Position numbers and translations under genes: made by a program | In this document: in pieces, positions 1-41,330 of the stretch | Numbering within the stretch: the first letter of the stretch is position 1 | Layout of the letters: each line of letters opens with the position of its first letter | Assembly (NCBI GenBank): GCA_002238965.1 | Contig: MPNJ01000011.1 | Coordinates: 62,001 to 126,000 of the forward strand | Length of the DNA: 64,000 bases | Direction: 5' to 3' | DNA from: Nitrospinae bacterium bin107 | GTDB taxonomy: Bacteria; UBA8248 | The notes under the pieces: generated by a model | Told to the model about the DNA's origin: nothing | The model's database searches: none | Seen by the model: the letters and a program-made list of their open reading frames with translations, nothing else

Positions 1-2
1 AA

Positions 3-2294: not shown

Positions 2295-2318
2295 CCCAGG
2301 GCATCTCCCTGGGTTTTT
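2295..2318 (+). terminator. intrinsic terminator-like hairpin
   Basis: CCCAGGG at 2295-2301 pairs perfectly with CCCTGGG at 2307-2313 across a 5-base loop, and TTTTT follows at once. This is the form of a rho-independent terminator on the plus strand. No intact upstream gene explains it. It may insulate the toxin-antitoxin operon that starts just downstream, or be left from a deleted gene. A degenerate counterpart seems present near 12283-12310. Confidence 0.6.
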
Positions 2319-2381
2319 GGGGAAACGCCACGCCGGACTTGCTGAAAACGATCCTTCAACTGAATGGGCGGATGTTTCCGC

Positions 2382-2410
2382 TTGATATATATGTTATTTT
2401 ATTAAATAAT
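2382..2410 (+). promoter_or_regulatory. promoter of toxin-antitoxin module 1
   Basis: TTGATA at 2382-2387 and AATAAT at 2405-2410 are separated by 17 bases, a good sigma70 geometry, 31 bases before the antitoxin ATG. The same arrangement (TTGACA, 17 bases, ATAATT) lies before the second module at 12738. The AT-rich -10 region contains a degenerate inverted repeat (TGTTATTT and AAATCAACA), a likely autoregulatory operator by comparison with the cleaner copy. Confidence 0.6.
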
Positions 2411-2441
2411 AAATCAACACTAACTATCCGGGAGCGCCAAG

Positions 2442-2849
2442 ATGTCTAAATACGAACCCCTGACGGTTCACCTGCGTAAATCCGGTATCGCGTCGGTTCC
2501 CATTACGTTCGATAAGATCGAGCGCATCGTCGGAGTGAAGCTGCCGCCTTCGGCCTTCAAGTACCGCGCGTGGTGGTCGAACAACCCCACGAACAGCGTC
2601 ATCACGCACGCCTGGCTCGAAGCGGGATACAAGACGGCAAACGTGGACATGGCGGGCCGCAAACTCGTCTTTCGAAAATATGCAAAGAGCGAGTCGGCGC
2701 CTGAATCCGTCGACGAACGAGAAGCCCCGAACGGGGCCGACGCCGGTTATTTCTCGCGCATCTACGGCGCGCTTCAGGGCACGGTGACGATCCACAAGGA
2801 CACGGACTTGACCTCCCCCGTCGATGCGGAATGGGACGCCGAGCGATAG
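2442..2849 (+). CDS. DUF7662-type antitoxin with VapB-like tail, copy 1
   Basis: This 135-residue protein is the probable antitoxin of the PIN toxin 6 bases downstream. Residues 1-80 resemble the small domain I know as DUF7662 (conserved LPPSAFKYRAWWSN, then AWLEAGY and a KLVFRKY strand). Residues 103-135 (FSRIYGALQGTVTI, then DLTSPVDAEWDAER) look like the toxin-binding tail of VapB antitoxins. The DNA-binding end therefore differs from the usual AbrB, Phd or RHH domain. GGGAG precedes the ATG at normal spacing. A near-identical paralogue lies at 12797-13204. The pairing with VapC is inferred from position and tail similarity. Confidence 0.72.
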   Translation: MSKYEPLTVHLRKSGIASVPITFDKIERIVGVKLPPSAFKYRAWWSNNPTNSVITHAWLEAGYKTANVDMAGRKLVFRKYAKSESAPESVDEREAPNGADAGYFSRIYGALQGTVTIHKDTDLTSPVDAEWDAER

Positions 2850-2855
2850 GCCGAC

Positions 2856-3263
2856 ATGCCCGCTTATCTATTTGATACCTGTGCGGTGATCTGGATTGCC
2901 GAAGGCGCGCGCCTGCGAGAACCCGCGGCGAGCGAACTGCCCAAAGCGCGTGAAGGAGATATTTTCGTCTCTCCGATGAGCGCCTGGGAAATCGCCACCC
3001 TCGCGTCGAAAGGAAAAATTGCGCTCGCCATGAGTCCCGAGGTCTGGTTCGAGCGATTCCGCAACCTGTCCGGAATCGCCCTTGCCGACATGCCGCCGTC
3101 GGTGCTGATCGCCTCGGCCTACCTCCCCGGCGCGCCTCCCGCCGACCCGGCCGACCGCATCCTCCTCGCCACGGCGCGGGAGTTCGGCTACACGCTGGTG
3201 ACGCGCGACGCGCATCTTCTCGAATACGGCGAAAAAGGGCATGTAAGGGTGATGGGATGTTGA
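2856..3263 (+). CDS. vapC: PIN-domain toxin, VapC family, copy 1
   Basis: This is a PIN-domain ribonuclease of 135 residues, the normal VapC length. Acidic metal-binding residues are visible: Asp7 in LFDTCAVIW, Glu45 in SAWEIA, Asp100 in DPADRILLATA and Asp118 in TRDAHLL. VapC toxins cleave tRNA or rRNA when released from the antitoxin. The gene follows its antitoxin by 6 bases, so the two are cotranscribed. The protein is about 90 percent identical by eye to the copy at 13211-13618, and the active-site residues are unchanged in both, so both look functional. Confidence 0.88.
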   Translation: MPAYLFDTCAVIWIAEGARLREPAASELPKAREGDIFVSPMSAWEIATLASKGKIALAMSPEVWFERFRNLSGIALADMPPSVLIASAYLPGAPPADPADRILLATAREFGYTLVTRDAHLLEYGEKGHVRVMGC

Positions 3264-3284
3264 TATATCAGTGCGAAAACACTA

Positions 3285-5192
3285 TTAAGTGCCTTGTGCA
3301 TTCCAAATGTTATTCGCCAGCTTAGCTAGATCGGCAGCCCTTCGTTCTATTGCTAACTCATCCCATGTCTCATTTGCAGCAACTTCGCGATTTAAGGCTA
3401 GTAGTGATTTACCTAAGCGTTCGCGCTTGGTCATCCAGCCTGAGTTCCCGATACCCGCATTTAATGGTCCTGTAACTAATGTAAGATTCCCTAGAGTGGC
3501 AACTGCCTGCTCGCGTTCATCCATAAGCGTTTTAGTTTCGTCATCTAGGGCATGCCCATTATAGGCGGCTTCCCACGTAGATTCGCATGGAGCAGTTAAA
3601 CCATTCGGCAATGGCCAATTCTCGGCCCAAGACTGTGGCATAATGTGCTCAATCGTAAGGTTTTCGGAAGTCACTATGGTCTCGTCAAACTTATCACGCT
3701 TCATATGCTCTATCTTATTCAGAATGTAGCGAAGTCGCGGCCTTGGAGTACTGGAATACCGACTATAAGTCTCTCGTCGCGCAAACGCCTCTTCTACTTC
3801 CATGTCAGAAGGCATCCGCGAAGCATCCCCGCTTAGACTGGCGAGATGCTTTAAAAAAGCCGACACAGGATCATTCTGCTCCTTGGCATTCCTTATGACC
3901 CCGGTGACCACTTTGTTGTAGTTCCTGCTGGTGAGGCCACAGATTTCACGCCGGACGATATAACTTTCAACAACGCTGAAAAGTCTAGTCTTATCTTGTT
4001 CTTCGAGCGGCTGCGCGTTGATCCATAAAACCAACGGATGAAAAGTAGACATGTCCCAAATTTGGAGGACTTTTGCGAGTTTCGCAAAGACCGCACTCTC
4101 ATCCCGATCTTCCATAGCACGATACGTGGCGGCATGTTCACGCAGCAGATCAAGTTCCTCAGCTATAGTCGGAAATGCACGCTCCCGCGCATAGTGCTGA
4201 TATTCAGTAGCCACCTTTCCTACATTCACTTCCCGGGCAGTCTCGGCGACAACGGCGTGAGCTATCAAATGGTCTGCTCTCGCACGCTTCAACCGCCCCT
4301 GTTTTACCTCTTTACTCCAGAAGCGTTGTTCAAACACTTTCCATCTCTCGTCAAAAAGCTTTTGGGCGTCTTCACGTGTTTTTTGCGCTCGATGAAAGAC
4401 ATCGTTCCGAATGAGATCGAACGGGGATAAGGGTTTTCCCAAACCATTAAGCGAGGCGAAGATTTCCTGCGCATCATCATTTTGATCAAGCTGGATGAGG
4501 ACAACCTGAAAACCGGAAAGGAAACCGTCAAGAAGTGCTTCGAGGACTTCCTCAGGCTTCTCGCCATATTCCTCTCGCTCTTGGATAAAATCTTTCATTT
4601 CTTGAGAAAGATACCAGAATACACGCAATAAATTCGGTACCCAAGAACCCGTTTTTAATTTGCCATTTTTGTAGATGTAATACTGATATTCTTTTGAGGC
4701 CCGAAGGTAGTTTCTAAGTTCATCCAAGCTCCTCTTAACAATGCCTTGGTAAAGGGAGCGGTCAAAGCTGGAAGGCCAAAGCTTGAAGCACTCGCGCTCA
4801 GGATCTTCCATGCTAGAACTACGCTCGTTAAAGAGATAAGCATTGGTTACATCCAACAAACGCAAAACCTCAAAATCGCGGGCTACCTCCCTGATGGCAA
4901 TCAGTGCGAGTTGGAATGTAGTGATTCTCTGCTGACCATCAACTAGAAAACGTTGGCGGACAGTGCCGTAGCGCTGATTAGGCAGTTCAGAACAGATGAT
5001 GGCACCGAAAAAATGCGGGAACTGAGTCCGGCTGTCGAGACGTTCAATCGCCTTATCTTTCCAGTCATCCCAAAATTTCGGGAGTTGCTTGTCCTGTTTC
5101 GTTTCCCACTCATAGTGACGCTGATATACAGGAACGACCCATTGCTGTTTTTCACCTAAAACTGTTTCAAGCGGAAAAGGGTCAGCACGCAT
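3285..5192 (-). CDS. single-chain GmrSD-like (DUF262/DUF1524) type IV restriction nuclease
   Basis: This 635-residue protein has an N-terminal DUF262 (GmrS-like) domain with VPVYQRHYEW at residues 20-29 and the nucleotide-binding LVDGQQRITT at 83-92. It ends in a DUF1524 (GmrD-like) His-Me-finger nuclease domain with IEHIMPQ at about 514-520 and the downstream LGNLTLVTG. GmrSD enzymes cut phage DNA with glucosylated hydroxymethylcytosine; many single-chain relatives have unknown modified-DNA targets. The gene is visibly more AT-rich than its neighbours and points against the toxin-antitoxin pair, which fits horizontal acquisition. The specific target cannot be read from the sequence. Confidence 0.85.
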   Translation of the reverse strand: MRADPFPLETVLGEKQQWVVPVYQRHYEWETKQDKQLPKFWDDWKDKAIERLDSRTQFPHFFGAIICSELPNQRYGTVRQRFLVDGQQRITTFQLALIAIREVARDFEVLRLLDVTNAYLFNERSSSMEDPERECFKLWPSSFDRSLYQGIVKRSLDELRNYLRASKEYQYYIYKNGKLKTGSWVPNLLRVFWYLSQEMKDFIQEREEYGEKPEEVLEALLDGFLSGFQVVLIQLDQNDDAQEIFASLNGLGKPLSPFDLIRNDVFHRAQKTREDAQKLFDERWKVFEQRFWSKEVKQGRLKRARADHLIAHAVVAETAREVNVGKVATEYQHYARERAFPTIAEELDLLREHAATYRAMEDRDESAVFAKLAKVLQIWDMSTFHPLVLWINAQPLEEQDKTRLFSVVESYIVRREICGLTSRNYNKVVTGVIRNAKEQNDPVSAFLKHLASLSGDASRMPSDMEVEEAFARRETYSRYSSTPRPRLRYILNKIEHMKRDKFDETIVTSENLTIEHIMPQSWAENWPLPNGLTAPCESTWEAAYNGHALDDETKTLMDEREQAVATLGNLTLVTGPLNAGIGNSGWMTKRERLGKSLLALNREVAANETWDELAIERRAADLAKLANNIWNAQGT

Positions 5193-5433
5193 AAGCTCTC
5201 CACTAAATTAGCCTAATGTCCGGCGTGTAGATAACACAGGGAGAGCATGTATTCAATCAAGAGTGGTTTAGACTAGGTTTGAAGTGAGTATGAATAGTAA
5301 ACAAAGATACTCCATTCCTACTATTATACTTGTTAAGTATCATAATTTAAGGCTTAGCGTAATTTTGATAACGTAATCATATCTCCTCAACAAATAGTTG
5401 TGAGACAAGTAATCCCCCCTACTTCCTCATCTC
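5193..5433. other. AT-rich upstream region of the GmrSD-like gene
   Basis: This AT-rich spacer holds no gene. It must carry the promoter of the minus-strand nuclease gene, but I cannot fix convincing -35 and -10 boxes by eye. Base composition changes abruptly to GC-rich at about 5435, where the cvpA-like fragment begins. Confidence 0.45.
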
Positions 5434-5583
5434 CTATGTTTCGATCTCCTCACCCTCTTCCCTCGCGCCGGGCATGGCGTCCTCGATCTTTTCCTTCACC
5501 GCGCCGACGCCCTCTATGGCCGAGTCGAGCTTGTCGTCGAGTTTCTCCTTGGCAGAGTCGAGGCCCTTGCCGATGTCCACCAT
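5434..5583 (-). pseudogene. orphan 3' end of a cvpA-like gene
   Basis: The 49 codons encode MVDIGKGLDSAKEKLDDKLD and continue to DAMPGAREEGEEIET before TAG. They align with the C-terminal tail of the complete CvpA protein at 16488-17117 (EEGLNAAREKLGDKLDSAKE through DAMPGAREEGEEMET). One stretch of 43 bases is identical between the two loci. The membrane part of CvpA is absent, so this is a gene fragment unless the short peptide is translated on its own. It sits at the right border of accessory island 1, in the same relative place as the intact cvpA beside island 2. Confidence 0.8.
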
Positions 5584-6068
5584 CACGGCTTTCGGGTGGA
5601 TGACGATGAGAAGCGTACAGCCTCATCCCGATCTTCGACGTAAGCGGCCGAAGTCGCGATATCTGTGCGATCATGTTTTCATTCTCCCGTCGGGTGAAAA
5701 ATTCACGCGATTGCGTATGTACAACGCGCAATGAACATACCGGCGCAAGAAGCCGAACAGGCAGGCGCCAGGCTTCGTCGCGCGTCGCCATCCTTCGAGG
5801 GTGCGCGCGCCACCCGCTCTTTCCCGAACCGCCCGGCTCCGCAACCGGGTTCCGTCCTCCCGCGCTGTCGTTTGCTTCGGCGGGGTCCCGGTGGTACTAT
5901 GCGGTATCCATTCGGGCTTTATTTTCCATCGGGCGGGGCGCAACGAACCGCCCGGCGTTTGAATCGTGGCGTGAGAGTCGTCGGCTCGCGATGCCGCCCG
6001 TTTGGACTCCCTCGGGGATGGCCCGCGCAGCATGACGGTCCGAGCGCACCCATCAGGGAGGAACAGAA
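5584..6068. other. intergenic region before the liv operon
   Basis: I recognise no gene in these 485 bases. Open frames on both strands lack any family motif. The region must contain the promoter of the importer operon. The only clear signal is the ribosome-binding site GGGAGGA at its right end. Confidence 0.4.
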
Positions 6069-7358
6069 ATGTCCAAAAGCATTATCACGAGACGCGAGTT
6101 CCTGAAGTATTCAACCGCTGGTTCGCTGGCCGGCATAGGTTCCCTGGCAGCGCCGGGAATCCTGAAGTCGGGCCTTGCTTCGTCCAAGCCCATCAAGATC
6201 GGCTGCCCGATGCCGCTCACCGGGCGGTATTCCCGCGAGGCGCTCTACTGCGTCGAGGGCTACAAGCTCTGGGCCAAGCACATCAACGAGAAGGGGTACA
6301 GTTACGGCAACGAGGGGCTCCCGCACCGCGAGCCCGGGCTCATCGGCGGGCGCAAGGTCGAGCTGACCGTTCTCGACGACACGAGCGACCCCACCCAGGG
6401 CGCGCGGCTCATGCTCCATCTCATCCACAACCAGAAGGTCGACCTGCTGCTCGGCCCCTACGCCAGCTCCATCAACCTGGCGGTGCGGCCCATCGTCGCC
6501 GCGGCGAAGATTCCCACCGTCAGCGCCACCGCCTCCAGCCAGAAGATATGGCTGGGCCAGAAGCTCAACTGGCAGGTGCAGCTCATGGTCCCGAGCCGCG
6601 ACCGCTTCGCCGGCATGGAAGTGATGTGCAAGAACGCCGGGATGAAGAAGGTCGCCCTGCTGCACATCGACGACGCGATGCCGATCGCCGCGGCGGAGGG
6701 CGTGCGCAAGCGCATCCTGGACGCGGGCCTCGACCTCGTCCTCGACGAGGCCTATCCCATCGGGATTCAGGACATGGTGCCGCTGGTCCGCAAGGCCCGG
6801 GACGCCGGCGCCGAGGTGCTCTGCGGCGGCGGCTACTCGGCCGACTCCATCCTGATCGCCAAGGCCGCCCTTTCGCTGAAATGGGCGCCCAAGGCGATCT
6901 GGTACATGTCCGCTCTCGGCCACGTGGACTTCAACCAGGCGCTCGGCAAGAACGCGGCCTGGCATTGCAGCGACACCGAATGGCTGCCGACGGCCAACTG
7001 GCCCGGCAACAAGAAGTTCGTCGACGCCTTCGCCAAGGAGTACAACAAGGCGCCCGACTGGCTCGCGGCGGCCGGATACGGCGGCTGTCAGATTCTCGAA
7101 GAGGCGGTCAAACGGGCCGGCTCGGTGGAGAACCGCTCGAAGATCCGCGACGTCATGTTCTCGCTCGACCGAGCCACCGTGTTCGGACGCTTCCGGGTGA
7201 ACCCGCTGGGCCATGCCGACTCCGGGCTGCAGGTTGGCGGCACACGACTCGCTTTGCAGAACCAGGTCAAGAACGGCAAGGTGGTGCCCGAGGTGATCTA
7301 CCCGAGCAAGATCGCCTCCGCCAAGTTCGTGCACCCGTTCAAGTGGGAAGCCATGTAG
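6069..7358 (+). CDS. ABC transporter substrate-binding protein, branched-chain amino acid/amide type
   Basis: This is the periplasmic receptor of the LivHMGF importer encoded immediately downstream. The 429-residue precursor starts with a Tat signal: TRREFLK at residues 7-13, a hydrophobic stretch with GSLAGIGSLAAPG, then the mature protein from about residue 38. The body has the type I periplasmic-binding fold of LivJ/LivK and amide receptors (GCPMPLTGRYS, VDLLLGPYASSINLAV, ADSILIAKAA). GGGAGGA lies 8 bases before ATG. The ligand cannot be told from sequence; the adjacent M20 hydrolase hints at a peptide, amide or N-acylated amino acid rather than free leucine (inference). Confidence 0.9.
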   Translation: MSKSIITRREFLKYSTAGSLAGIGSLAAPGILKSGLASSKPIKIGCPMPLTGRYSREALYCVEGYKLWAKHINEKGYSYGNEGLPHREPGLIGGRKVELTVLDDTSDPTQGARLMLHLIHNQKVDLLLGPYASSINLAVRPIVAAAKIPTVSATASSQKIWLGQKLNWQVQLMVPSRDRFAGMEVMCKNAGMKKVALLHIDDAMPIAAAEGVRKRILDAGLDLVLDEAYPIGIQDMVPLVRKARDAGAEVLCGGGYSADSILIAKAALSLKWAPKAIWYMSALGHVDFNQALGKNAAWHCSDTEWLPTANWPGNKKFVDAFAKEYNKAPDWLAAAGYGGCQILEEAVKRAGSVENRSKIRDVMFSLDRATVFGRFRVNPLGHADSGLQVGGTRLALQNQVKNGKVVPEVIYPSKIASAKFVHPFKWEAM

Positions 7359-7479
7359 GCGCAGGCGCCCCCCCGGCGGAACCGTTGCATCCCGCCGGGA
7401 GTCCGTCTCGATTCGGGCTTCCGGCGGCTGCGCCGAGTCGCCGGCTTCGGCCAACCACCCTTCGTTTGGGATACCCGGC

Positions 7480-8355
7480 ATGATCGAAACCCTCGGCACC
7501 TTTGGTGAGTTGATCGCGTTCGGGCTCATCCTGGGGACCATGTACGCCCTGGTGGCCATCGGTCTGAGCCTGATCTTCGGCGTCTGCGGGGTCGTGAACG
7601 CGGCCCACGGCGACTTCGTGATGCTCGGCGCCTTCACCACCTTCGGCGCCTGGTCTTTCCTCGGCCTGAATCCGCTGCTGGCGCTGCCCCTCAGCATGGC
7701 GGTGCTCTTCGCCGTCGGCTTCGGAATGGGTCATTTCCTGATCAACGTCGTCGCCGTCCGCGGGCTGATGCCGCCGATGATGCTGACCTTCGGGATATCC
7801 ATGATCCTGTGGAACACGGCGGAGGTGGTCTTCACGCCGACCTTCCGCTCGGTCGACTATCTGGGCGAGCCGGTCACGGTCGGTTTTCTCACCACCAGCA
7901 AGATATATCTCGTCGCCTTTGCGCTGGCGCTGCTTCTGCTCGCCGCTTTCTTCGCCCTCCTCCGGTTCACGGCGTACGGCGAGGCCATCCGCGCCACCGC
8001 GCAGAACCGGAATCTGGCGCAGGCCTGCGGCATCGACGTCAAGCAGGTCATGGCGGTGACCTTCGGCCTCGGCACCGCGCTGGCGGGCGCCTGCGGGACC
8101 ATGGTGGCGATGGTGTGGACGATATATCCGCAAATGGGGCTGATCTACGTGGCCAAGGCCTTCGCCATCGTCGTCATCGGCGGACTCGGGAGCCTGCCCG
8201 GCGCGTTCCTGGGAGCCTACATCTTCGGGGTCGTCGAGAGCGTCGGCACCCATTACCTGACGACGCGGATGGCGCAGGTGCTGCCGTACCTGATCATCGT
8301 TCTGATTCTGGCCGTCCGGCGACGCGGTTTGCTCGGCCACGAGGTGGAGGATTGA
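7480..8355 (+). CDS. livH: branched-chain amino acid ABC permease LivH
   Basis: This 291-residue integral membrane permease belongs to the LivH family, with about eight hydrophobic segments beginning at GLILGTMYALVAIGLSLIFG, which carries the family's N-terminal signature. The EAA-like cytoplasmic loop RATAQNRNLAQACGID contacts the ATPase subunits. It forms the inner-membrane channel with LivM, encoded 7 bases downstream. Length and motifs are normal for the family. Confidence 0.92.
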   Translation: MIETLGTFGELIAFGLILGTMYALVAIGLSLIFGVCGVVNAAHGDFVMLGAFTTFGAWSFLGLNPLLALPLSMAVLFAVGFGMGHFLINVVAVRGLMPPMMLTFGISMILWNTAEVVFTPTFRSVDYLGEPVTVGFLTTSKIYLVAFALALLLLAAFFALLRFTAYGEAIRATAQNRNLAQACGIDVKQVMAVTFGLGTALAGACGTMVAMVWTIYPQMGLIYVAKAFAIVVIGGLGSLPGAFLGAYIFGVVESVGTHYLTTRMAQVLPYLIIVLILAVRRRGLLGHEVED

Positions 8356-8362
8356 TCCGGCC

Positions 8363-9310
8363 ATGACCTGGAGACGCGCGGTTCCCTACGTCGGCGCCAC
8401 GGGCCTGATCGCCTACGCGGTCCTCGCGGGTACTGCGCCGCTCTTTCTGGGCCCGGCGGCGCTCTCCCTGCTGTTCCTGACCCTCTACTACGTCTGCCTC
8501 GCCGGCGCCTGGAACTTCTTTTCCGGCTTTTCCGGCTATATCAATTTCGGCTTCGTCCTGTTCGTCGGGCTCGGCATGTACGCCTCGGTGATCGGCTTCG
8601 TCGACTTCAAGATGGGACTGATCCCGGGCTACCTGACGGGCGGGCTCGTCTCCGCCATCGTCGCGGCGGTGATAGGCTATCCGCTGCTGCGCATACGCGG
8701 CGCCTATTTCGCGATCTCGATGCTGGCCCTCGCCGAGGGAGCTCGGGTGCTCATATCCACCAAGTACCTGACGCCGCTCACGCGCGGCGGCGCCGGCATG
8801 CCCGTCCTCGCGGGAAACCTGACCCAGAAGTACTACGCCATCTTCCTGCTTGCGGTCTGCATCGTGCTGGCGACCATGTTCTTCGCCCGCTCGTACTTCG
8901 GCCTGTCGCTGATCGCCGTGCGGGAAGACGAGTCCGCGGCGAGCGGTCTCGCGGTCAATACCACCGCCGTGAAGGTCAGCGCGTTCGTCGTCAGCGCCTT
9001 CTTCGCCGGAACGGCGGGCGGCATCCAGGCCACTTTTCTGCACTACATCGAACCGTTCGCGGCATTCGACATCAAGTACACCATGCTGTCCATCGTGATG
9101 GCCATGTTCGGTGGCCTGGGAACCGTCCTCGGTGCGGTGATCGGCGCCGTCACGCTCCAGCTCATCAGCGACTACGTCTGGCTGCACCTCGGCCAGGCCA
9201 ACATCACCGTCTTCGGTCTCATTCTGGTCTGCCTGGTCATCTGGATGCCCGACGGCGTCGTGGTCCGCCTCAAGGAGATGGGGATTCTGCCGAAAACGAG
9301 GTGGATATGA
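8363..9310 (+). CDS. livM: branched-chain amino acid ABC permease LivM
   Basis: This is the second permease subunit, 315 residues, with repeated hydrophobic helices and the LivM signatures NFFSGFSGYINFGF, YPLLRIRGAYFAISMLA and a coupling loop around AVREDESAASGLAVNT. It follows livH after 7 bases and is followed by the two ATPase genes. Nothing suggests truncation. The coding strand and spacing fit one transcript from the receptor gene to livF. Confidence 0.92.
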   Translation: MTWRRAVPYVGATGLIAYAVLAGTAPLFLGPAALSLLFLTLYYVCLAGAWNFFSGFSGYINFGFVLFVGLGMYASVIGFVDFKMGLIPGYLTGGLVSAIVAAVIGYPLLRIRGAYFAISMLALAEGARVLISTKYLTPLTRGGAGMPVLAGNLTQKYYAIFLLAVCIVLATMFFARSYFGLSLIAVREDESAASGLAVNTTAVKVSAFVVSAFFAGTAGGIQATFLHYIEPFAAFDIKYTMLSIVMAMFGGLGTVLGAVIGAVTLQLISDYVWLHLGQANITVFGLILVCLVIWMPDGVVVRLKEMGILPKTRWI

Positions 9311-9371
9311 CGATGAAGGCGAAAACCCGTCTCGCCGCGGGACACCGCACGAGCCCACCCGGGAGAGAAGC

Positions 9372-10079
9372 ATGACCGCCGACAGGCCGATCCTCGAGAT
9401 CCACGACGTCCGGAAAAGCTTCGGGGGCGTCCATGCGCTCGCCGGGTGCGGCTTTTCCGTCGGAGAGGGCGAGATCGTCGGCCTGATCGGACCCAACGGC
9501 TCCGGCAAGACGACCTTGTTCAATACCATCGTGGGATATCTGCCGCTGGACGACGGGCGCATCCTCTATCGCGGAGAGAACGTGACGGGTCTGCCGCCCT
9601 ACCAGATCGCCCGGAAGGGCATCGGCCGCACCTTTCAGGTGACGCGCATATTCCCAAAGATGACTTTATTGGAGAACGTCACCTTGCCGACGGGAAGCGC
9701 CGACGCGAACGACAGGGCGTATGAACTTCTCGAACTCGTCGGCCTGGCCGACCTGCAGGACGAATACGCGAGCGACCTCTCCTTCGGCCAGCAACGCCTG
9801 CTCTCCATCATCCAGGTCCTGATGCTCGATCCGTGGTTGATCCTGCTCGACGAGCCGGCCGCCGGCGTCAATCCCGTCATGCAGAAGAAATTGCTGGAGC
9901 TGATCCATTATCTGAATGAGGAAGGCAGGACCTTCCTGATCATCGAGCACAACATGGACGTGGTCATGAACAACTGTGAGCGCGTCGTCGTCCTGAGCAT
10001 GGGTGAGAAGATAGCCGAAGGATCGCCGGATGAAGTCCGGCGGGACGAGGCCGTCCTCACCGCCTATTTCGGAGCTTGA
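9372..10079 (+). CDS. livG: ABC transporter ATP-binding protein LivG
   Basis: This is the cytoplasmic ATPase of the importer, 235 residues. Visible motifs are Walker A GPNGSGKTT, the signature LSFGQQRLL, Walker B LILLDEPAAGVNP and the switch His in IIEHNMD. LivG proteins usually carry an insertion between Walker A and the signature of about the length seen here. The gene starts 61 bases after livM and ends 3 bases before livF. All catalytic elements are intact. Confidence 0.93.
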   Translation: MTADRPILEIHDVRKSFGGVHALAGCGFSVGEGEIVGLIGPNGSGKTTLFNTIVGYLPLDDGRILYRGENVTGLPPYQIARKGIGRTFQVTRIFPKMTLLENVTLPTGSADANDRAYELLELVGLADLQDEYASDLSFGQQRLLSIIQVLMLDPWLILLDEPAAGVNPVMQKKLLELIHYLNEEGRTFLIIEHNMDVVMNNCERVVVLSMGEKIAEGSPDEVRRDEAVLTAYFGA

Positions 10080-10082
10080 GCC

Positions 10083-10802
10083 ATGGCCGGGGATACATTG
10101 CTGAAGGTCGAGGGAATCGCCTCCGGCTACGGCAAGAAGGAAATCCTGCACGGCGTCTCGCTCGAGGTCGGCCGCGGCGAGACGATCGCCCTCATCGGGC
10201 CGAACGGCGCAGGCAAGTCGACCATGCTGCTGACCATCCTGGGCTACCTGAAGCCGACGGAGGGAAAGGTCGTCCTCGAGGGAGAGGACATCACCGGGAT
10301 CGAGCCGCACCTGATCATCCGGCACGGGGTCGCGTATTGCCCCCAGGGGCGCAACATCTTCCCCCAGATGACGGTGAGCGAGCACCTCCACCTCGGCGCC
10401 TGGACGGTGGCCGACGCCGAGGAGCGGCGCCGCGCGCGCGAAGGGGTATACGGCCTGTTCCCCATCCTGAAGGAAAAGGAGCGCAGCAAGGCCCGAACCC
10501 TCAGCGGCGGCCAGCGGCAAATGCTCAGCTTCGGGATGGCCATGGTCACCAGGCCGACCCTCATCCTGCTGGACGAGCCGACGATCGGGCTGGCGCCCAC
10601 GGTGATGGAAACCATCTTCGAGAGCATCGAGCGGATTCACCGCGACGGCGTATCGATCCTGGTCGTGGAGCAGAACTCGGCCAAGGCCCTGGAGAATTCC
10701 GACCGGGGATACGTGCTGGACATGGGCCGGAATCGTCGGGAGGGAGACTCGGCGGAGCTACTTCTAGATCCGAACATACGCCAAATGTACCTTGGCATGT
10801 AG
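10083..10802 (+). CDS. livF: ABC transporter ATP-binding protein LivF
   Basis: This is the second ATPase of the importer, 239 residues, with Walker A GPNGAGKST, the Q-loop segment AYCPQGRNIFP, signature LSGGQRQML, Walker B LILLDEPTIGLAP and VVEQNS with Gln in place of the switch His, a common LivF feature. It pairs with LivG below the LivH-LivM channel. It starts 3 bases after livG and precedes an M20 hydrolase gene on the same strand. Confidence 0.93.
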   Translation: MAGDTLLKVEGIASGYGKKEILHGVSLEVGRGETIALIGPNGAGKSTMLLTILGYLKPTEGKVVLEGEDITGIEPHLIIRHGVAYCPQGRNIFPQMTVSEHLHLGAWTVADAEERRRAREGVYGLFPILKEKERSKARTLSGGQRQMLSFGMAMVTRPTLILLDEPTIGLAPTVMETIFESIERIHRDGVSILVVEQNSAKALENSDRGYVLDMGRNRREGDSAELLLDPNIRQMYLGM

Positions 10803-10882
10803 TCACCGGGGCCGCCCGGCATGAGAGGCCGGGGCGCCCTATAAGCCGCGCATCGCGCACACCGAAGAGGGAGGGACGAACG

Positions 10883-12205
10883 ATGAGCATGGTCGAAGAC
10901 GCACTGGCATACGTCGACGAGGAAGCTATCGCGCAGTTGACCATGGAGATGGTCGACATCCCGAGCCCCCAGGGCGGTGAGAAGGCGCTCGCCGAATATC
11001 TCGCCGACCGCTTCCGGGCGGCGGGTCTGCAGACCTGGATGCAGGAGGTCGAGCCGGATCGATATAACGTCTACGGCCAGCTCGAGGGTACGGGCGACGG
11101 CCCGACACTGATGTACTGCGGCCACCTGGACACGACCTACGGCGGCGACGAGGAGGGCATCCGCGATCTCGGGCCGGGATATCAGCCGAAATCCTGGCGC
11201 GAGGGCGAGTGGATCTACGGCATGGGCACTTACAACATGAAGAGCGGTCACGCATCGGCCATCCTCGCCGTGGAGGCCATGGCCCGCTCCAGGGCGAAGC
11301 TGCGCGGCAACCTGATGATCGCCGGCGTCGTCGGCGAGACCTGCCACACGCCGGTGGGGCGTTACCAGGGCGCCCGTTACCGGGGCTGCGGGATCGGCGC
11401 CCGCTTCATGGTCAACAACGGCATCACCGCCGACATGGTGGTCATACCCGAACCGACATCCAACCGGATTTCGGTGGCCACGGGCGGCTATGTGTTTATG
11501 GAACTCATGACCCGGGGCAACCCGGCCGCCACCTACAGCCGCGGCGGCTCCACGGTGAAGATCAAGCCCGGCGAAGACGCCATCGAGAAGATGCTGAACG
11601 CCATACCCGCCCTCAAGAACTGGGGCGAGGACTACCTGAGCAGGACCCGCTACAAGGGTGAGCAGGCCGGAAACGTCAACATCATCGCCATCGAAGGGGG
11701 GCATCCGTTCCGGGCGAGTAAGCTCCCGTGCTTCTGCCGCCTCTATCTGGAAGTCGGGATCATGCCGGGCCAGCTGCACGGCGATATCATCGCCGAAGTG
11801 GGTCAGGTAATCCGGCAGCTGCGGGAGAAGGACCCCGCCATGGAGATCGAGCTGCAGGTTATGCAGACGGCGTACGCGGCCGAAATATCGCCCGAGGAAT
11901 ACGTGGTGCGCAGCATCTCCGCCTCGCACGACCTCGTCTGGGGCGAGCGCCCCGAGATCACCTGGGACGGCTGGTACGCCGACACCGCACCCCTGACCCG
12001 CGCCGGAATTCCGGCGATCTGCTACGGCCCCCAGGGCCGCGCCAGCGGCGGCGGCACAGGCTACTACCCGAAGGAGGGAGAGCACGCATCGGTCCATGAT
12101 CTCACCAAAGGCACCCACGTGTTCGTCAACGCCGCCCATGACATCTGCATGAAGGATCGCCTCGAGATACGAAAGCCCGATGTCGCCGGGACGATCGTGC
12201 GCTGA
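10883..12205 (+). CDS. M20 family metallo-hydrolase (ArgE/DapE type)
   Basis: This 440-residue protein has the two-domain M20 architecture: YCGHLDT with the first metal-binding His and nearby Asp, then GMGTYNMKSG, GETCHTPVG, and a C-terminal EHASVHD. Family members hydrolyse dipeptides, N-acyl amino acids or carbamoyl compounds. Two canonical residues differ: the metal-bridging Asp of DMK is Asn (YNMK), and the usual Glu-Glu pair is Glu-Thr. The start at 10883 is supported by GGGAGGGA upstream. It is the last gene of the liv cluster, so it probably processes the imported compound. Substrate and metal content are unknown. Confidence 0.8.
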   Translation: MSMVEDALAYVDEEAIAQLTMEMVDIPSPQGGEKALAEYLADRFRAAGLQTWMQEVEPDRYNVYGQLEGTGDGPTLMYCGHLDTTYGGDEEGIRDLGPGYQPKSWREGEWIYGMGTYNMKSGHASAILAVEAMARSRAKLRGNLMIAGVVGETCHTPVGRYQGARYRGCGIGARFMVNNGITADMVVIPEPTSNRISVATGGYVFMELMTRGNPAATYSRGGSTVKIKPGEDAIEKMLNAIPALKNWGEDYLSRTRYKGEQAGNVNIIAIEGGHPFRASKLPCFCRLYLEVGIMPGQLHGDIIAEVGQVIRQLREKDPAMEIELQVMQTAYAAEISPEEYVVRSISASHDLVWGERPEITWDGWYADTAPLTRAGIPAICYGPQGRASGGGTGYYPKEGEHASVHDLTKGTHVFVNAAHDICMKDRLEIRKPDVAGTIVR

Positions 12206-12387
12206 CGCGTCCCCGCAATTAGGGGGAGCCGTCCGCCCGCCGGGGAGCGGAACAAGCCGGGCGCTTACGGGAAAACCTGCGTACCGGGGTCCTATGCCTT
12301 CTTCCTGGGCTTTCGGGAAAAACGGGACAACATCTCTCCTTCCTGCTATCCCATAGGTAAGGCATGAGGGGAAAAGGAGATCATGAG

Positions 12388-12621
12388 ATGGTCGAGTCCA
12401 CGATTACATCCAAAGGCCGGACGACGATCCCTAAGTCCGTACGCGAGGCGCTTGGCGTAAATCCGGGCGACCGTGTCCGCTATCTCGTTCAGGGCGATGA
12501 GGTGCGCATCACCCCGGTGCGGCCCCTCGCCCGGCTCTTCGGCGCGCTCAAATTCGACGGCCCGCCGGTGACACTCGAGGAGATGGAGCGCGCGATCGCC
12601 GACGGAGCGTGTGAGGAGTGA
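12388..12621 (+). CDS. AbrB/SpoVT-domain antitoxin
   Basis: This 77-residue protein has an N-terminal swapped-hairpin AbrB domain (STITSKGRTTIPKSVREALG, then VNPGDRVRYLV and DEVRITP) and a C-terminal tail with LARLFGALKF and LEEMERAIADGAC, as in antitoxins of PIN toxins. The start at 12388 has AAGGAG 8 bases upstream; an in-frame ATG further upstream lacks this. The stop codon overlaps a GTG that begins only a remnant of a PIN toxin (12618-12660), so this is now an orphan antitoxin. It lies directly left of the second VapBC-like module. Confidence 0.82.
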   Translation: MVESTITSKGRTTIPKSVREALGVNPGDRVRYLVQGDEVRITPVRPLARLFGALKFDGPPVTLEEMERAIADGACEE

Positions 12622-12660
12622 TCGCGCTCTACACGAACGTCCTCGACGATACCCGGACAC
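12618..12660 (+). pseudogene. remnant of a PIN toxin start
   Basis: GTGATC overlaps the antitoxin stop and reads VIALYTNVL, very close to the usual PIN N-terminus (M/V)IALDTNVL but with the catalytic Asp changed to Tyr. After about nine codons the resemblance ends. This looks like a toxin gene that was inactivated and then deleted. The call rests on a short match plus the expected overlapping position. Confidence 0.45.
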
Positions 12661-12737
12661 ATCACCGAAAACGGCGGAATCGTCTTGCCGGTCATTCTGA
12701 AAACAAAACTTCATCAAAATCGGGGGGATGTTTTTAC

Positions 12738-12775
12738 TTGACAAATATGTTGTTTTGTTAATAATTAAAACAACA
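12738..12775 (+). promoter_or_regulatory. promoter and palindromic operator of toxin-antitoxin module 2
   Basis: TTGACA at 12738-12743 and ATAATT at 12761-12766 are 17 bases apart. A perfect inverted repeat, TGTTGTTTT (12748-12756) and AAAACAACA (12767-12775), surrounds the -10 box, so a bound antitoxin would block polymerase. The corresponding site before module 1 is related but imperfect. GGAGAG precedes the ATG at 12797. Autoregulation is the usual behaviour of type II modules and is inferred here. Confidence 0.68.
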
Positions 12776-12796
12776 CTAACTATTTGGAGAGTTTTC

Positions 12797-13204
12797 ATGT
12801 CCAAATACGCACCCCTGACGACCCACCTTCGCGCATCCGGGCGGGCGTCCATCCCCCTCACCTTCGATAAGATCGAGCGCATCGTCGGAGTGAAGCTACC
12901 GCCTTCGGCCTTCAAGTATCGCGCGTGGTGGTCGAACAACCCCACGAACAGCGTCATCACCCACGCCTGGCTTGAGGCGGGCTACAAGACGGCGAAAGTG
13001 GACATGGCGGGCCGCAAACTCGTCTTTCGACAATATGCAAAGAGCGAGTCAACGCCTGAAGCCGTTGATGATCCGGAAAGCCAGAACGGGGCCGACACCG
13101 ATTATTTCTCACGCATCTTCGGCGCGCTTCAGGGCACGGTCACAATCCACAAGGATACGGACTTGACCTCCCCGGTCGGAGTGGAATGGGACGCCGCGCG
13201 ATAG
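12797..13204 (+). CDS. DUF7662-type antitoxin with VapB-like tail, copy 2
   Basis: This 135-residue paralogue of 2442-2849 is nearly identical through the central LPPSAFKYRAWWSN region and the C-terminal toxin-binding tail. It diverges most at residues 6-22 and 86-100. An in-frame ATG at 12728 exists but precedes the promoter; 12797 is chosen because GGAGAG precedes it and it matches the start of copy 1. The PIN toxin follows after 6 bases. If both copies are expressed, cross-neutralisation is likely because the tails match (inference). Confidence 0.75.
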   Translation: MSKYAPLTTHLRASGRASIPLTFDKIERIVGVKLPPSAFKYRAWWSNNPTNSVITHAWLEAGYKTAKVDMAGRKLVFRQYAKSESTPEAVDDPESQNGADTDYFSRIFGALQGTVTIHKDTDLTSPVGVEWDAAR

Positions 13205-13210
13205 GCCGTC

Positions 13211-13618
13211 ATGCCCCTTTTTCTCCTTGATACCTGTGCGGTGATCTGGATTGCGGAAGGCGCGCGGCTGCGAGAACCCGCAGCAAGCGAACTGCCCAAA
13301 GCGCGTGAAGGAGATATTTTCGTCTCCCCGATGAGCGCGTGGGAAATCGCCACCCTCGCGTCGAAAGGAAAAATTGCGCTCGCCATGAGTCCCGAGGTCT
13401 GGTTCGAGCGCTTCTGCGACCTGACCGGAGTCGCCCTTGCCGGTATGCCGCCTTCCGTGCTGATCGCCTCGGCCGCCCTCCCCGGCGCGCCTCCCGCCGA
13501 CCCGGCCGACCGCATCCTACTCGCCACGGCGCGCGAGTTTGGCTACACGCTGGTGACGCGCGACGCGCATCTTCTCGTTTACGGCGAGCAAGGGCACGCA
13601 CGGGTGTTGGGGTGTTGA
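13211..13618 (+). CDS. vapC: PIN-domain toxin, VapC family, copy 2
   Basis: This 135-residue PIN ribonuclease differs from 2856-3263 at a limited number of positions, mostly in the middle (RFCDLTGVALAGM against RFRNLSGIALADM). Catalytic acids are intact: Asp7 in LLDTCAVIW, Glu45 in SAWEIA, Asp100 in DPADRILL and Asp118 in TRDAHLL. It is the second gene of toxin-antitoxin module 2, and the restriction-type genes of island 2 follow it. Confidence 0.88.
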   Translation: MPLFLLDTCAVIWIAEGARLREPAASELPKAREGDIFVSPMSAWEIATLASKGKIALAMSPEVWFERFCDLTGVALAGMPPSVLIASAALPGAPPADPADRILLATAREFGYTLVTRDAHLLVYGEQGHARVLGC

Positions 13619-13807
13619 AGAGTCAAGAGAAACGCAAGGGATACACAAAACATACGAATTCCAATCATTCCAGCTTATTGCTTCCTTGCAATATGCACGG
13701 AATTATTAAAAACTAAAAACAAATACGAGGATTCTTAAAGACCCGAATCCACTATTAAATTGATGGGCCAAACGATTTTGCCCAAGCCCGTTGGATAGGT
13801 ACCCGGT

Positions 13808-13903
13808 GTGCGTCTGGGTATCGGTGAGTTACTTCGCGCCTTGGGCGATGAGAGGCGAAATGTGCCAGTGCGGCCCATTGTCGATGTGACTTTTGAGGAA
13901 TGA
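13808..13903 (+). pseudogene. possible 3' remnant of a gene before the HNH pair
   Basis: From GTG at 13808 the frame reads VRLGIGELLRALGDERRNVP and VRPIVDVTFEE, ending in a TGA that overlaps the ATG cluster of the HNH gene. Such overlap is typical of operons, which suggests the tail of a lost upstream partner. Upstream in the same frame there is a TAG at about 13796-13798. The peptide matches no family I can name, so the call is weak. Confidence 0.25.
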
Positions 13904-13905
13904 TG

Positions 13906-14826
13906 ATGGGCCTTAAATTTGTGATCGCCCTCACGGATAAAGACTGGTTTGAAACTCTTCGACGGCATCCTAGTCTGGATGAGGTCAATTTTTGGGCACC
14001 CTCATCAACGAATTTCCGCGCGCTTCAGCCGGGCGAACTATTCTTGTTCAAATTGCATTCACCTCACAATGTGATCGTAGGCGGTGGCGTCTTCGCCTAT
14101 GCAAACTCACTACCATGTTCTCTAGCCTGGGAGGCCTTCGGTGAAACCAATGGTGCGCGATCTGCCCGGGAAATGCGCACCCGAATCGCCAGGTATCGAA
14201 GGCAAGAGCCAAACGATCAGAGCGATTTTGAAATCGGTTGTCGAATCCTGACCCAGCCTTTCTTTTTCGACGAAGCGGATTGGATTTCTCAGCCGGCAAG
14301 CTGGAGTCCGAATATCGTCTCCCTCAAGACCTACAACACAGATGACCCCGAGGGTCTTCAGCTTTGGGAAGCTGTAAATGACCGTCTGAGCAGACAACCT
14401 GGAAATGAATTGGCAGAAGAACTCAAGCGATATGGGAAACCACAACGCATTCGGCCCCGACTTGGACAAGGCGCTTTTCGCGTACTTGTGACTGACATAT
14501 ACGGAAGGCGGTGTGCAGTTACACAAGAGCGGACTTTGCCTGCTCTGGAAGCAGCTCATATCCGTCCCTATGGTTGTGGTGGTACGCATGATGCACAAAA
14601 TGGGCTCCTTTTGCGACGCGATATTCACAGCCTATTCGATTCCGGCTATGTCACCGTAACACCCGATCTCAACTTCGAAGTCAGCCGACGTATTCGTGAA
14701 GAGTATGAAAATGGCAGACACTACTATGCCCTTCATGGAAAGCGAATTAACGCGCCCGACTTGCTCGATAAACGCCCTGACCATGCTGCTTTAACCTGGC
14801 ACAACGAACATTGTTTCAAAGGATAA
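13906..14826 (+). CDS. HNH endonuclease with PUA-like N-terminal domain
   Basis: This protein of about 306 residues has an N-terminal region (VIALTDKDWFETLRRHP, FRALQPGELFLFKLH, NVIVGGGVFA, SLAWEAFG) of the kind seen in modification-sensing HNH nucleases. Its C-terminal HNH_2 domain carries EAAHIRPY, Asn in QNGLLLRRD and His in IHSLFD. The three catalytic positions are about His218, Asn232 and His241. Three ATGs stand in tandem at 13900, 13903 and 13906; GAGGA at 13895-13899 fits the third. It precedes a second HNH gene by 3 bases, so they form an operon. The modification-dependent role is inferred. The gene is AT-richer than flanking core genes. Confidence 0.8.
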   Translation: MGLKFVIALTDKDWFETLRRHPSLDEVNFWAPSSTNFRALQPGELFLFKLHSPHNVIVGGGVFAYANSLPCSLAWEAFGETNGARSAREMRTRIARYRRQEPNDQSDFEIGCRILTQPFFFDEADWISQPASWSPNIVSLKTYNTDDPEGLQLWEAVNDRLSRQPGNELAEELKRYGKPQRIRPRLGQGAFRVLVTDIYGRRCAVTQERTLPALEAAHIRPYGCGGTHDAQNGLLLRRDIHSLFDSGYVTVTPDLNFEVSRRIREEYENGRHYYALHGKRINAPDLLDKRPDHAALTWHNEHCFKG

Positions 14827-14829
14827 ACG

Positions 14830-15777
14830 GTGGCCTCAATAGATGGTAACGACCAAGACACGCAGATGCGATTAGCGGCTTTTGATCGTGTCCGGGAACT
14901 CCAGGAAGTGCATGACCATCTTAGCGCGAATGAGTTAAGGCCGGGTTTCATTTTCAATGAGGAACGCATCCCGCTCGTCAATCCGCAACGCGGCATTTTC
15001 AAACCCCGGCAAATGCGATTCTTGCTTTCAATCAGGACGGTATATCCAACGCCGGGCAGGAGAATCTGGTACGACGATCAGCGCGAAGTTCACCGCCAGA
15101 TATATGAGGGTGACGAAACGGTTGATTACGCATTCATGGGGGAAAACCCAGAAGCTGCCGACAATCGCTGGCTGCGTGAAGCGTGCGAGAATCAAAAACC
15201 TGTGATTTATTTTCTCGGCATCGCCCCCAGGAGATATGAGGCCATCCTGCCAGTTTTCATAACTGGATGGGACGCCAAGGCATTGAAGGCGCAAATTACG
15301 TTTGGTATGCCTCATCAACAAGTGCTTGAAGAGGAACTTGCACCACCCAGGAGTAGCAATGAGCGACGTTATGCTCTGCGTTCTGTTAAACAAAGGTTAC
15401 ATCAAACATCGTTCCGAGAAGCCATCATCAGTGCCTACAATGGCCGTTGCGCGCTTTCGGGAATACCCGAACCACGCCTATTGGACGCTGCGCATATTAT
15501 CTCAGATAAGGATAAGCGACTCGGCCAACCGGTAATCCCCAACGGCCTCCCGTTGTCAAAGACCCATCATGCCGCCTTCGATAGACACATGATCGGGATC
15601 GACCCGGACTATCGCGTGCATGTCTCCGACCAACTACTCAGCAAGCACGACGGTCCCATGCTCGAAGCCCTGAAGCGGCTTAACGACGGAGCCATTCATC
15701 TCCCTCGCCGCGTCAAGGACCGACCGGATCGAGACCGGCTTGCGCTGCGTTTCGAGCGTTTCAAGGCAACGGCGTAA
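14830..15777 (+). CDS. HNH endonuclease, partner of the preceding gene
   Basis: This 315-residue protein begins with GTG, 3 bases after the first HNH gene. The N-terminal domain (PLVNPQRGIFKPRQMRFLLS, IWYDDQREVHRQIYEG, AFMGENPEAADNRWLREA, KPVIYFLGIAPRRYE) is conserved in a family of putative HNH restriction enzymes and may sense DNA. The C-terminal HNH_2 domain has LLDAAHI (His222), PNGLPLS (Asn238) and THHAAFD (His246/247). Complete catalytic residues suggest activity. Being coupled to another HNH nuclease next to toxin-antitoxin genes, it is most likely a defence gene, but the substrate is unknown. Confidence 0.82.
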   Translation: MASIDGNDQDTQMRLAAFDRVRELQEVHDHLSANELRPGFIFNEERIPLVNPQRGIFKPRQMRFLLSIRTVYPTPGRRIWYDDQREVHRQIYEGDETVDYAFMGENPEAADNRWLREACENQKPVIYFLGIAPRRYEAILPVFITGWDAKALKAQITFGMPHQQVLEEELAPPRSSNERRYALRSVKQRLHQTSFREAIISAYNGRCALSGIPEPRLLDAAHIISDKDKRLGQPVIPNGLPLSKTHHAAFDRHMIGIDPDYRVHVSDQLLSKHDGPMLEALKRLNDGAIHLPRRVKDRPDRDRLALRFERFKATA

Positions 15778-15873
15778 GCCCCCTCCCCCCAATACGTCAG
15801 AACCGATTGTTGCGAAGGGTGAAAACTAAACTTCGGCAGGGTGGTGAGCGCGGGCGCGAAGGCCCGACGAGCA

Positions 15874-16461
15874 TCAATCTCTCCTGGCAGCCTTTCTCAC
15901 GGCGTCGGCGAGTTCGTAATAGGCAACAGGCGAAGCGAGTCCTTCCAGAGCGGACAGCGATAATGACTTGCGCTCATCAAGCTTCGCAGTGGATAGTGCG
16001 TAGAATTTCCATTGGTCGAGTTCGAGGGGGTCGATCGGCACTTCCTGTCGCGCAAAGAGCGCGAACACGTATACGTCAGCTTGGCGTTTTGGTTCGGAAG
16101 CAAGGAGACCGCTTTCTGGGTCCCATGCGCGCGTCCTGGGCGTCCCAAAGCTGATCCGAGAAAAGCGGGCCTGCTCCCAACTCTGGACATACGCCGCGGA
16201 CTTGACCTCAATCTTTATCCCGTCTGGCGTTTCGAGGTCGAACGGCGCCCATTCATCGCGAACTTCCTTCTCCGTTGGTATCTCAAGGGCGCGGGCCACG
16301 ATGAATTCCGCCAGAATCCCTCGGGCAGTGTTGCCGACCAGATCAGAGGACGACCACCGCCAAAAATCAAACACGCTGAATCCGAGAGCAGAACCACGTT
16401 CGCGAAAAGGCTCACTACCGGTTTTTTTGACAATCTCAAGTTTTTCTAACACATCCGCCAT
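15874..16461 (-). CDS. PD-(D/E)XK nuclease-like protein of unknown function
   Basis: This 195-residue protein has a compact nuclease-like signature: RGILAEFIVARAL with Glu52, Asp75 in WAPFDLETPDG, then Glu85-Val-Lys87 in IKIEVKSAAYVQSW. This matches the order and spacing of the PD-(D/E)XK core. The rest (FSRISFGTPRTRAWD, ADVYVFALFARQE, WKFYALST) resembles small uncharacterised bacterial proteins rather than a named restriction enzyme. It lies between the HNH operon and cvpA, on the opposite strand to the HNH genes and the same strand as cvpA. I regard it as the third defence-type gene of island 2; no partner methyltransferase is nearby. Confidence 0.6.
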   Translation of the reverse strand: MADVLEKLEIVKKTGSEPFRERGSALGFSVFDFWRWSSSDLVGNTARGILAEFIVARALEIPTEKEVRDEWAPFDLETPDGIKIEVKSAAYVQSWEQARFSRISFGTPRTRAWDPESGLLASEPKRQADVYVFALFARQEVPIDPLELDQWKFYALSTAKLDERKSLSLSALEGLASPVAYYELADAVRKAARRD

Positions 16462-16487
16462 AGATACTTCCGTAACAGAGGCTCCCC

Positions 16488-17117
16488 CTACCGCTTAAGT
16501 TCCTTTGTCTCCATCTCCTCACCCTCTTCCCTCGCGCCGGGCATGGCGTCCTCGAGCTTTTTCTTCACCGCGCCGACGCCCTCCTTGGCCGAGTCGAGCT
16601 TGTCGCCGAGTTTCTCCCTGGCGGCGTTCAGGCCTTCCTCGATGTCCTCCTTGTCGAACGCCTGGATGTAGACGCTCACCCCTCGCACATACGGGAGGAG
16701 TTTGTCCCCGCCGCCCGCAGGCAAAAACCCGGAGACACGGGCTTCGAAGACCACCAGCCCCAGGGCGATGAAGAACACACCCTTGGCGCACCCGATGAGG
16801 CCGCCGCCGAGCCGCGAGAGCAATCCGGGCGTTGCGATCGACAAAACGCCGAACATCATGCGGAAGAACCAGGCGGCGACTACCCATGTACCGAGAAAAA
16901 TCAGAGGCTTGACGAACGGATCGAGCCGGTCGCTCCCGTCCAGGAAGTAGGAGAGGTAGGAGCGCGCGAGGTCGCTGAACTGCATGGTGAGGAGAATCGC
17001 GATTCCGAGCGCGACCACGGAAAACGTTTCGCGGAAAAAACCGCGCACGCAGCCGCGTATGAGAAACGCGCCGACGAACACGGCGATGACGACATCGGGA
17101 AACGTCAAGGAAATCAT
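16488..17117 (-). CDS. cvpA: CvpA family inner-membrane protein with charged tail
   Basis: This 209-residue protein has four hydrophobic helices (VVIAVFVGAFLIRG, FSVVALGIAILLTM, PLIFLGTWVVAAWF, LIGCAKGVFFIALGLVVF) and the CvpA signature around LGGGLIGCAKG. CvpA supports envelope integrity and colicin V production in enterics. After residue 155 comes a charged, probably helical tail (EDIEEGLNAAREKLGDKLDS, KEGVGAVKKKLEDA). The 3' end of this gene is present a second time as a fragment at 5434-5583, and in both places restriction-type genes lie immediately to the left. Confidence 0.82.
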   Translation of the reverse strand: MISLTFPDVVIAVFVGAFLIRGCVRGFFRETFSVVALGIAILLTMQFSDLARSYLSYFLDGSDRLDPFVKPLIFLGTWVVAAWFFRMMFGVLSIATPGLLSRLGGGLIGCAKGVFFIALGLVVFEARVSGFLPAGGGDKLLPYVRGVSVYIQAFDKEDIEEGLNAAREKLGDKLDSAKEGVGAVKKKLEDAMPGAREEGEEMETKELKR

Positions 17118-17220
17118 GAAACCTTATATTTCTACGGACGGAACCAGGACGGCCTCGTGATAGAGCGGGCATAATCTAGCAAATTACAATGCGTTTGTCA
17201 CCAAAGATTTAAGCGCCGGC

Positions 17221-41325: not shown

Positions 41326-41330
41326 GGTAG

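Follow-up and report, generated by a model that had tools for sequence, protein, structure and literature searches.

The closest described counterparts of the locus studied here are the core defence hotspots cDHS1 and cDHS2 of Pseudomonas aeruginosa, which, in the passages of PMC10250203 that deal with them, hold diverse defence genes between conserved chromosomal genes. Those passages give both hotspots two fixed flanks and median lengths of 26 and 6 kb, respectively, count more than 1600 cDHS1 regions, report a lower guanine-plus-cytosine (G+C) content for cDHS1 than for the genome, and suggest transduction and recombination at the flanks. A locus of this known kind is described here in a new place, the DNA directly downstream of cvpA in a 64,000-nucleotide stretch of Nitrospinae bacterium bin107 (hereafter the window; G+C 61.2%), which comprises bases 62001-126000 of contig 20 (132.7 kb) in a genome (G000) of 4.37 Mb and 60 contigs. 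The locus probably represents a defence hotspot that is anchored on a core gene and renews its content through homologous recombination, with two alleles standing in tandem in the window and a transporter operon between them, which would place a compact defence hotspot in an uncultured genus. No paper treating cvpA as an integration hotspot or genomic island was found in the literature search.

A first-pass annotation of the window had described two islands sharing a DUF7662/PIN toxin-antitoxin module on the left and the 3' end of cvpA on the right, with unlike cargo between. Comparison of bases 1-6500 with 6501-20000 by blastn (E limit 1e-3) confirmed this outline: the DUF7662-PIN pair occurs at 2321-3263 and 12676-13618 (87.2% alike over 944 columns) and the cvpA end at 5415-5581 and 16484-16650 (85.6% over 167 columns; E ~1e-49 in a whole-window run), while a third, minor match joins 2274-2325 to 12268-12321 (76% over 54). 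Chance similarity of the two frames was ruled out, as both main matches have E ~1e-49 or lower. The borders, which the annotation had proposed to define by nucleotide comparison, are sharp: the pair match terminates exactly at the PIN stop codon in both copies and the cvpA-end match starts 4 bases past the cvpA stop, leaving the interval between two convergent stop codons to the dissimilar cargo. At the same E limit nothing in this space matched between the copies, one holding a GmrSD gene and the other two HNH_2 genes (HNH1 and HNH2) together with a gene for a protein of 195 amino acids (aa). The whole order is thus pair 1, GmrSD, cvpA 3' end, transporter genes, AbrB, pair 2, HNH1, HNH2, 195-aa gene and cvpA (Table 1). 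Elsewhere in the genome the pair recurs as one 39-base piece on another contig.

Table 1. Features of the two tandem alleles and of the DNA between them (window coordinates)
Feature	Position	Strand	Evidence and remarks
Terminator-like hairpin left of pair 1	2295-2313	+	3 found vs 3.9 expected in shuffles, weak
Promoter-like site with overlapping inverted repeat (possible operator), pair 1	2382-2420	+	Pair 2 is preceded by a comparable arrangement (inverted repeat 12748-12775)
DUF7662 protein, presumed antitoxin, copy 1	2442-2849	+	PF24698 E=4.8e-17
PIN-domain (VapC-like) presumed toxin, copy 1	2856-3263	+	PF01850 E=2.9e-11
GmrSD-type (type IV) restriction protein, cargo of copy 1	3285-5192	-	PF03235 + PF07510; PADLOC mREase_IV E=6.5e-91
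Decayed duplicate of cvpA 3' end	5415-5581	-	86% to 16484-16650; in-frame TAG
Branched-chain-type ABC transporter genes and M20 peptidase, between copies	6069-12205	+	Pfam
Orphan AbrB/MazE-type antitoxin	12364-12621	+	PF04014 E=9e-12; PIN partner truncated ~12618-12656
DUF7662 protein, copy 2	12797-13204	+	Pfam; mosaic 5' end
PIN presumed toxin, copy 2	13211-13618	+	PF01850 E=1.3e-10
HNH_2 restriction-type protein (HNH1), cargo of copy 2	13900-14826	+	Pfam, PADLOC; weak to PT-DNA_restrict NF045808
HNH_2 restriction-type protein (HNH2), cargo of copy 2	14830-15777	+	Pfam, PADLOC; weak NF045808 match
195-aa protein, PD-(D/E)XK-like motif	15874-16461	-	At cvpA locus in 4/7 genus genomes
cvpA (Colicin V production protein family), constant border	16488-17117	-	PF02674 (Colicin_V) E=7.7e-14

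The locus was followed through G000, six other genomes of the genus (G001-G006) and 11 of the same family, 18 in all, with gene families assigned by Pfam, PADLOC and NCBIfam profile searches. cvpA was found in six of the seven genus genomes (none in G005), giving seven loci, two of them in G000, and the gene set downstream differed in every genome. Outward from cvpA, G001 carries the 195-aa gene, a DUF6680-like gene and PIN-AbrB before an ABC-3 permease region; G002 carries a 195-aa remnant, PIN-AbrB, a HipB-like gene, the 195-aa gene, PIN-DUF7662 and a broken PIN with AbrB before an ABC-3 permease; G003 carries a TIR gene (CAP12/PCTIR, E=9e-20), PIN-AbrB, a HipB-like gene with a HipA remnant, and a DUF7662 remnant; G004 carries PDC-S54 (E=5e-163), PIN-AbrB and PIN-DUF7662, then a PGI-like gene; and G006 carries HipB-HipA, the 195-aa gene, a fused AbrB/DUF7662 remnant and part of a short-chain dehydrogenase, which also stands left of copy 1 in the window. 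Named defence cargo (GmrSD, HNH pair, TIR, PDC-S54) was found at four of the seven loci, namely both in G000 and those of G003 and G004. The predicted variable content beside the cvpA end was thereby borne out in all six genomes with cvpA, three of which hold named defence cargo, whereas the idea of restriction-type cargo found no support in G001, G002 and G006, where no named restriction or TIR gene was seen.

The two proposed borders fared differently. The cvpA side is constant in all six genomes with cvpA, the following genes being colinear in G001, G002, G003 and G006 while the G004 contig ends after the next gene; cvpA is thus a real constant border. Contrarily, the far side is not constant, and the pair, which the annotation had taken as a fixed left border, is not one: it is intact in three of seven genomes, absent from G001 and reduced to a remnant in G003 and G006, and the genes beyond it differ. 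Where the pair is intact (four loci), the distance from its PIN stop to a cvpA stop is 2155-2870 bases. The outcomes that the annotation had named as refuting, a pair distant from cvpA in relatives or a constant, vertically inherited cargo, were not encountered. An AbrB-PIN module also lies between pair and cvpA in G002 and G004.

Several families are confined to this address. In the seven genus genomes, all five DUF7662 protein matches, all six matches of the AbrB-linked PIN and all five matches of the 195-aa protein sit at the cvpA locus, for which reason DUF7662 and the AbrB-linked PIN were not taken for dispersed mobile toxin-antitoxin modules within the genus. The AbrB-linked PIN has no match in the window's own genome, in which the orphan AbrB/MazE antitoxin with its truncated PIN (12364-12660; the toxin is cut off after about a dozen codons) had been missed by the first-pass annotation. 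Decay is visible in relatives as well: in G006 (L054 2178-2495) a single open frame runs from the beginning of AbrB into the end of DUF7662, as a deletion might have left it. A HipB-HipA-like module stands between cvpA and the 195-aa gene in G006 (L054 3590-5216), while the HipB-like gene lacks HipA in G002 and is accompanied by a HipA remnant in G003.

The DUF7662 and PIN genes lie on the same strand with a 6-base gap in all four intact copies, and both window pairs read open, with a ratio of nonsynonymous to synonymous divergence (dN/dS) of 0.25-0.26 between them. The promoter ascribed to the module is present as a promoter-like site, one of three found where shuffles give 2.6, and thus weak when taken alone. 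The score of the inverted repeat was reached by 1 of 200 shuffles for pair 2, 0 of 200 for G002 and 6 of 200 for pair 1; the G004 counterpart is only second best there. In G002, both arms of the repeat upstream of the pair are altered together. Read from the sequence, promoter-like site and inverted repeat fit a putative autoregulated toxin-antitoxin pair. In Pfam the partner figures solely as a domain of unknown function, and no paper naming DUF7662 was found in the literature search. Among 193 genomes searched for the family, four had a match, three of them in this genus, with none in 14 control genomes. Of 21 plasmid records with DUF7662, the two inspected carry the domain within a larger protein with no PIN gene annotated nearby, and of 119 plasmid records with relatives of the pair's PIN, the two inspected have Phd/YefM partners, indicating that DUF7662 as a PIN partner is unusual among the plasmid cases inspected.

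The cargo itself differs in composition from its frame, as the annotation had noted. The GmrSD and HNH genes have 47.5-53.3% G+C and the 195-aa gene 55.6%, compared with 61-65% for the pairs, AbrB, cvpA and the transporter, a value that holds for AbrB-PIN of G002 as well; across the genus loci, GmrSD, HNH1, HNH2, TIR, PDC-S54 and the DUF6680-like gene range over 44-53% and the 195-aa gene over 53-56%. The cargo is also absent from relatives: the GmrSD and HNH2 proteins each occur in 1 of the 18 genomes, and HNH1, TIR and PDC-S54, which were compared among the cvpA-locus stretches only, gave no cross match between genomes. The GmrSD protein unites GmrSD_N and GmrSD_C (100.9 and 98.3 bits against cut-offs of 33.2 and 23), while HNH1 and HNH2 weakly match the phosphorothioate-DNA restriction model NF045808 (56.5 and 46 bits against a cut-off of 180). 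Modification-dependent restriction enzymes require no partner methylase, which would make their swapping as single genes easy. Judged by their family names, GmrSD, the HNH pair, TIR and PDC-S54 may act against phages; no paper was found under the name PDC-S54 in the literature search. The 195-aa protein surfaced as a candidate nuclease-like protein with no match in Pfam, PADLOC or NCBIfam, and its putative PD-(D/E)XK character is read from its invariant D75, E85 and K87. Its profile matched 17 solved structures (15 designed Pizza repeat proteins and two kinases) in many weak pieces, which were dismissed, and the predicted structures of DUF7662 and the 195-aa protein were unusable (mean predicted confidence, pLDDT, 33.6 each) and discarded.

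The origin of the tandem arrangement turns on the divergence of the two copies. The pairs are nearest each other over most of their length and 89.5% alike in coding sequence, compared with 85.3 and 87.3% to G004; their synonymous divergence (dS) is 0.34 for DUF7662 and 0.20 for PIN, where cvpA and the S15 gene give 0.27-0.39 between G000 and other species. A recent duplication is ruled out by the 10.5% coding divergence and dS of 0.20-0.34, and the pairs, by this measure, are not recent copies of each other. With the DUF7662 part lying within the interspecies range, the pair copy appears to be either old or acquired from a near relative. Furthermore, all 17 discriminating sites within the initial 66 coding bases of pair 2 side with G002 and not with pair 1, compared with 20 of 132 in the rest (permutation p=0.0001; one of 24 comparisons run, p ~0.002 after correction), indicating that some recombination between lineages within the module is needed to explain these sites. 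The mosaic shows homologous exchange and agrees with the homologous recombination that the annotation had considered as the mechanism. The cvpA fragment, decayed by a TAG in frame ahead of the old stop, largely keeps the terminal codons of congeners that the intact G000 cvpA has lost, and also shares with that gene a tail segment absent from five congeners; together these features point to a derivation from this lineage or a close sister.

Several findings weigh against a recombining hotspot at cvpA. Three of seven loci (G001, G002 and G006) lack a named restriction, TIR or PDC gene and hold toxin-antitoxin modules, the 195-aa gene and, in G001, the DUF6680-like gene of unknown function. The left flanks vary among a short-chain dehydrogenase, an ABC-3 permease, a putative cytochrome-like gene and a PGI-like gene below cut-off, so one side offers no fixed homology arm. 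Not all content looks foreign: cvpA has the 195-aa gene as its neighbour in G000 as well as in G001, and the G+C of HipA in G006 is 65%. The genus is represented by only seven genomes, several of them fragmented (for G004 and G006 the locus comes on contigs only 7.4 and 11 kb long) and one, G005, without a cvpA found. Within the window, the PIN-part dS of 0.20 falls below the interspecies range, the mosaic test does not tell which pair was the recipient, the informative sites for the four pairs conflict (19, 14 and 8), and the tail segment shared by fragment and intact cvpA favours an in-lineage duplicate.

The last point leads to a segmental duplication of the whole block of pair, cargo and cvpA 3' end within the lineage, followed by replacement or overgrowth of one cargo, which is rather unlikely. 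It would account for the greater likeness of the pairs to each other than to G004, for the shared tail segment and for the commonest informative-site pattern, which groups pair 1 with pair 2 (19 of 41). However, duplication alone leaves the same cargo in both copies, and none is common to them, so that cargo would have had to be exchanged or replaced in any case; pair 2 agrees with G002 at its start; and the transporter genes between the copies are located elsewhere in G001 and G003. In G001, G003 and G006 these genes lie on contigs other than that of cvpA, and G002, G004 and G005 gave no close match to them; a second transporter copy was dismissed because the substrate-binding gene is single in its own genome.

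The duplicated gene end, intact on one side and a fragment on the other, also recalls a site-specific integrative element for which the cvpA 3' end served as attachment site; on entry the element would have rebuilt the end of the gene and left the former one behind as 5415-5581, and its integrase would have been lost later. Seven aligned cvpA ends all keep TAG and 3-5 G and diverge thereafter, and the fragment largely preserves a shared end from which the terminal codons of G000 cvpA depart. This origin is nevertheless improbable: no recombinase was identified among the genes scanned, which did not include every open reading frame of the islands, in line with the earlier remark that no integrase was visible; the 167-bp repeat, 86% alike with a longest exact run of 43, is not a near-identical repeat; the spacer past the G-run is unlike in G000 and G001 too, although these have the following gene in common, so that ordinary decay may account for the edge; and the site is filled by locus-restricted residents, not by one element. 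That two strains' alleles were artificially joined in one draft contig is highly improbable; the genome is a draft of 60 contigs with an estimated contamination of 3.23%, yet the longest identical stretch between the copies is 71 bases in the pair and 43 in the cvpA end, and ~7.1 kb separates the fragment from pair 2 inside a single 132.7-kb contig.

These results suggested a path for the cvpA hotspot turned over by homologous recombination. The DNA directly downstream of cvpA would serve the genus as a hotspot for defence and toxin-antitoxin genes, in which AT-rich stand-alone genes (GmrSD, HNH pair, TIR, PDC-S54, DUF6680-like) are gained and lost between locus-restricted residents (DUF7662-PIN, AbrB-PIN, HipB-like and the 195-aa PD-(D/E)XK-like gene) that stay in place and decay. 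The turnover would proceed by way of flanks and residents held in common, with no recombinase belonging to the locus. For the tandem alleles, the order of fragment, transporter, AbrB, pair 2, cargo and cvpA matches the expected outcome of a single crossover in cvpA 3' ends, and the simplest route would be such an event, by which the second allele, donated by a close relative or an older copy, was added and the first was not replaced. The layout looks like an intermediate of cassette exchange and predicts looping-out products and single-allele sisters. Another, doubtful pathway is that DUF7662-PIN and cvpA form a fence, with an addictive pair doubling as homology arm in a recombinase-free cassette exchange stabilised by toxin-antitoxin pairs; a cassette entering by single crossover would leave the earlier allele standing beside it in tandem, until one of the two was lost to recombination between the pairs or between the cvpA ends. 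Stabilisation by the pairs, as the annotation had imagined, may occur in either pathway.

Other repeats were observed in the window. A dispersed ~165-bp repeat (572-735) has at least 45 matches in its own genome among the matches listed (40 of 101 candidates scored) and is found in G001 too, next to the cvpA locus and next to the transporter genes; considered as a possible mover, it was not present at either island edge. A 78-bp repeat (707-784 and 2115-2192) partly overlaps it. A 403-bp direct repeat (41175-41577 and 43168-43570, 99.75% identical), enclosing open reading frames at 41789-42139 and 42239-43051, looks recent, and two 76-bp stretches in tandem at 59248-59419 are 84% alike.

Compared with known systems, the components are partly familiar. 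The pair shares with type II (VapBC-type) pairs a PIN gene and a small upstream partner in one operon, has a candidate operator in the inverted repeat near its promoter-like site, and differs in that the partner is DUF7662. The GmrSD protein shares with type IV (modification-dependent) restriction the N and C domains in one protein, and the HNH part of the other cargo is weakly alike the phosphorothioate-DNA-cutting enzymes of NF045808, far under the model cut-off. As far as cDHS1 and cDHS2 are described in the relevant passages of PMC10250203, the cvpA locus shares with them diverse defence genes at one chromosomal address and, with cDHS1, a lower G+C; however, it has one fixed flank, spans ~2-4 kb in congeners and 14 kb here, and holds locus-restricted toxin-antitoxin families at seven loci in six genomes. 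Replacement islands (PMC10250203) and the hypervariable junctions of Escherichia coli ST131 (PMC11739808), as outlined in the corresponding parts of these sources, likewise place unrelated cassettes at one chromosomal address, whereas the cvpA locus in the window keeps two alleles in tandem with duplicated edges.

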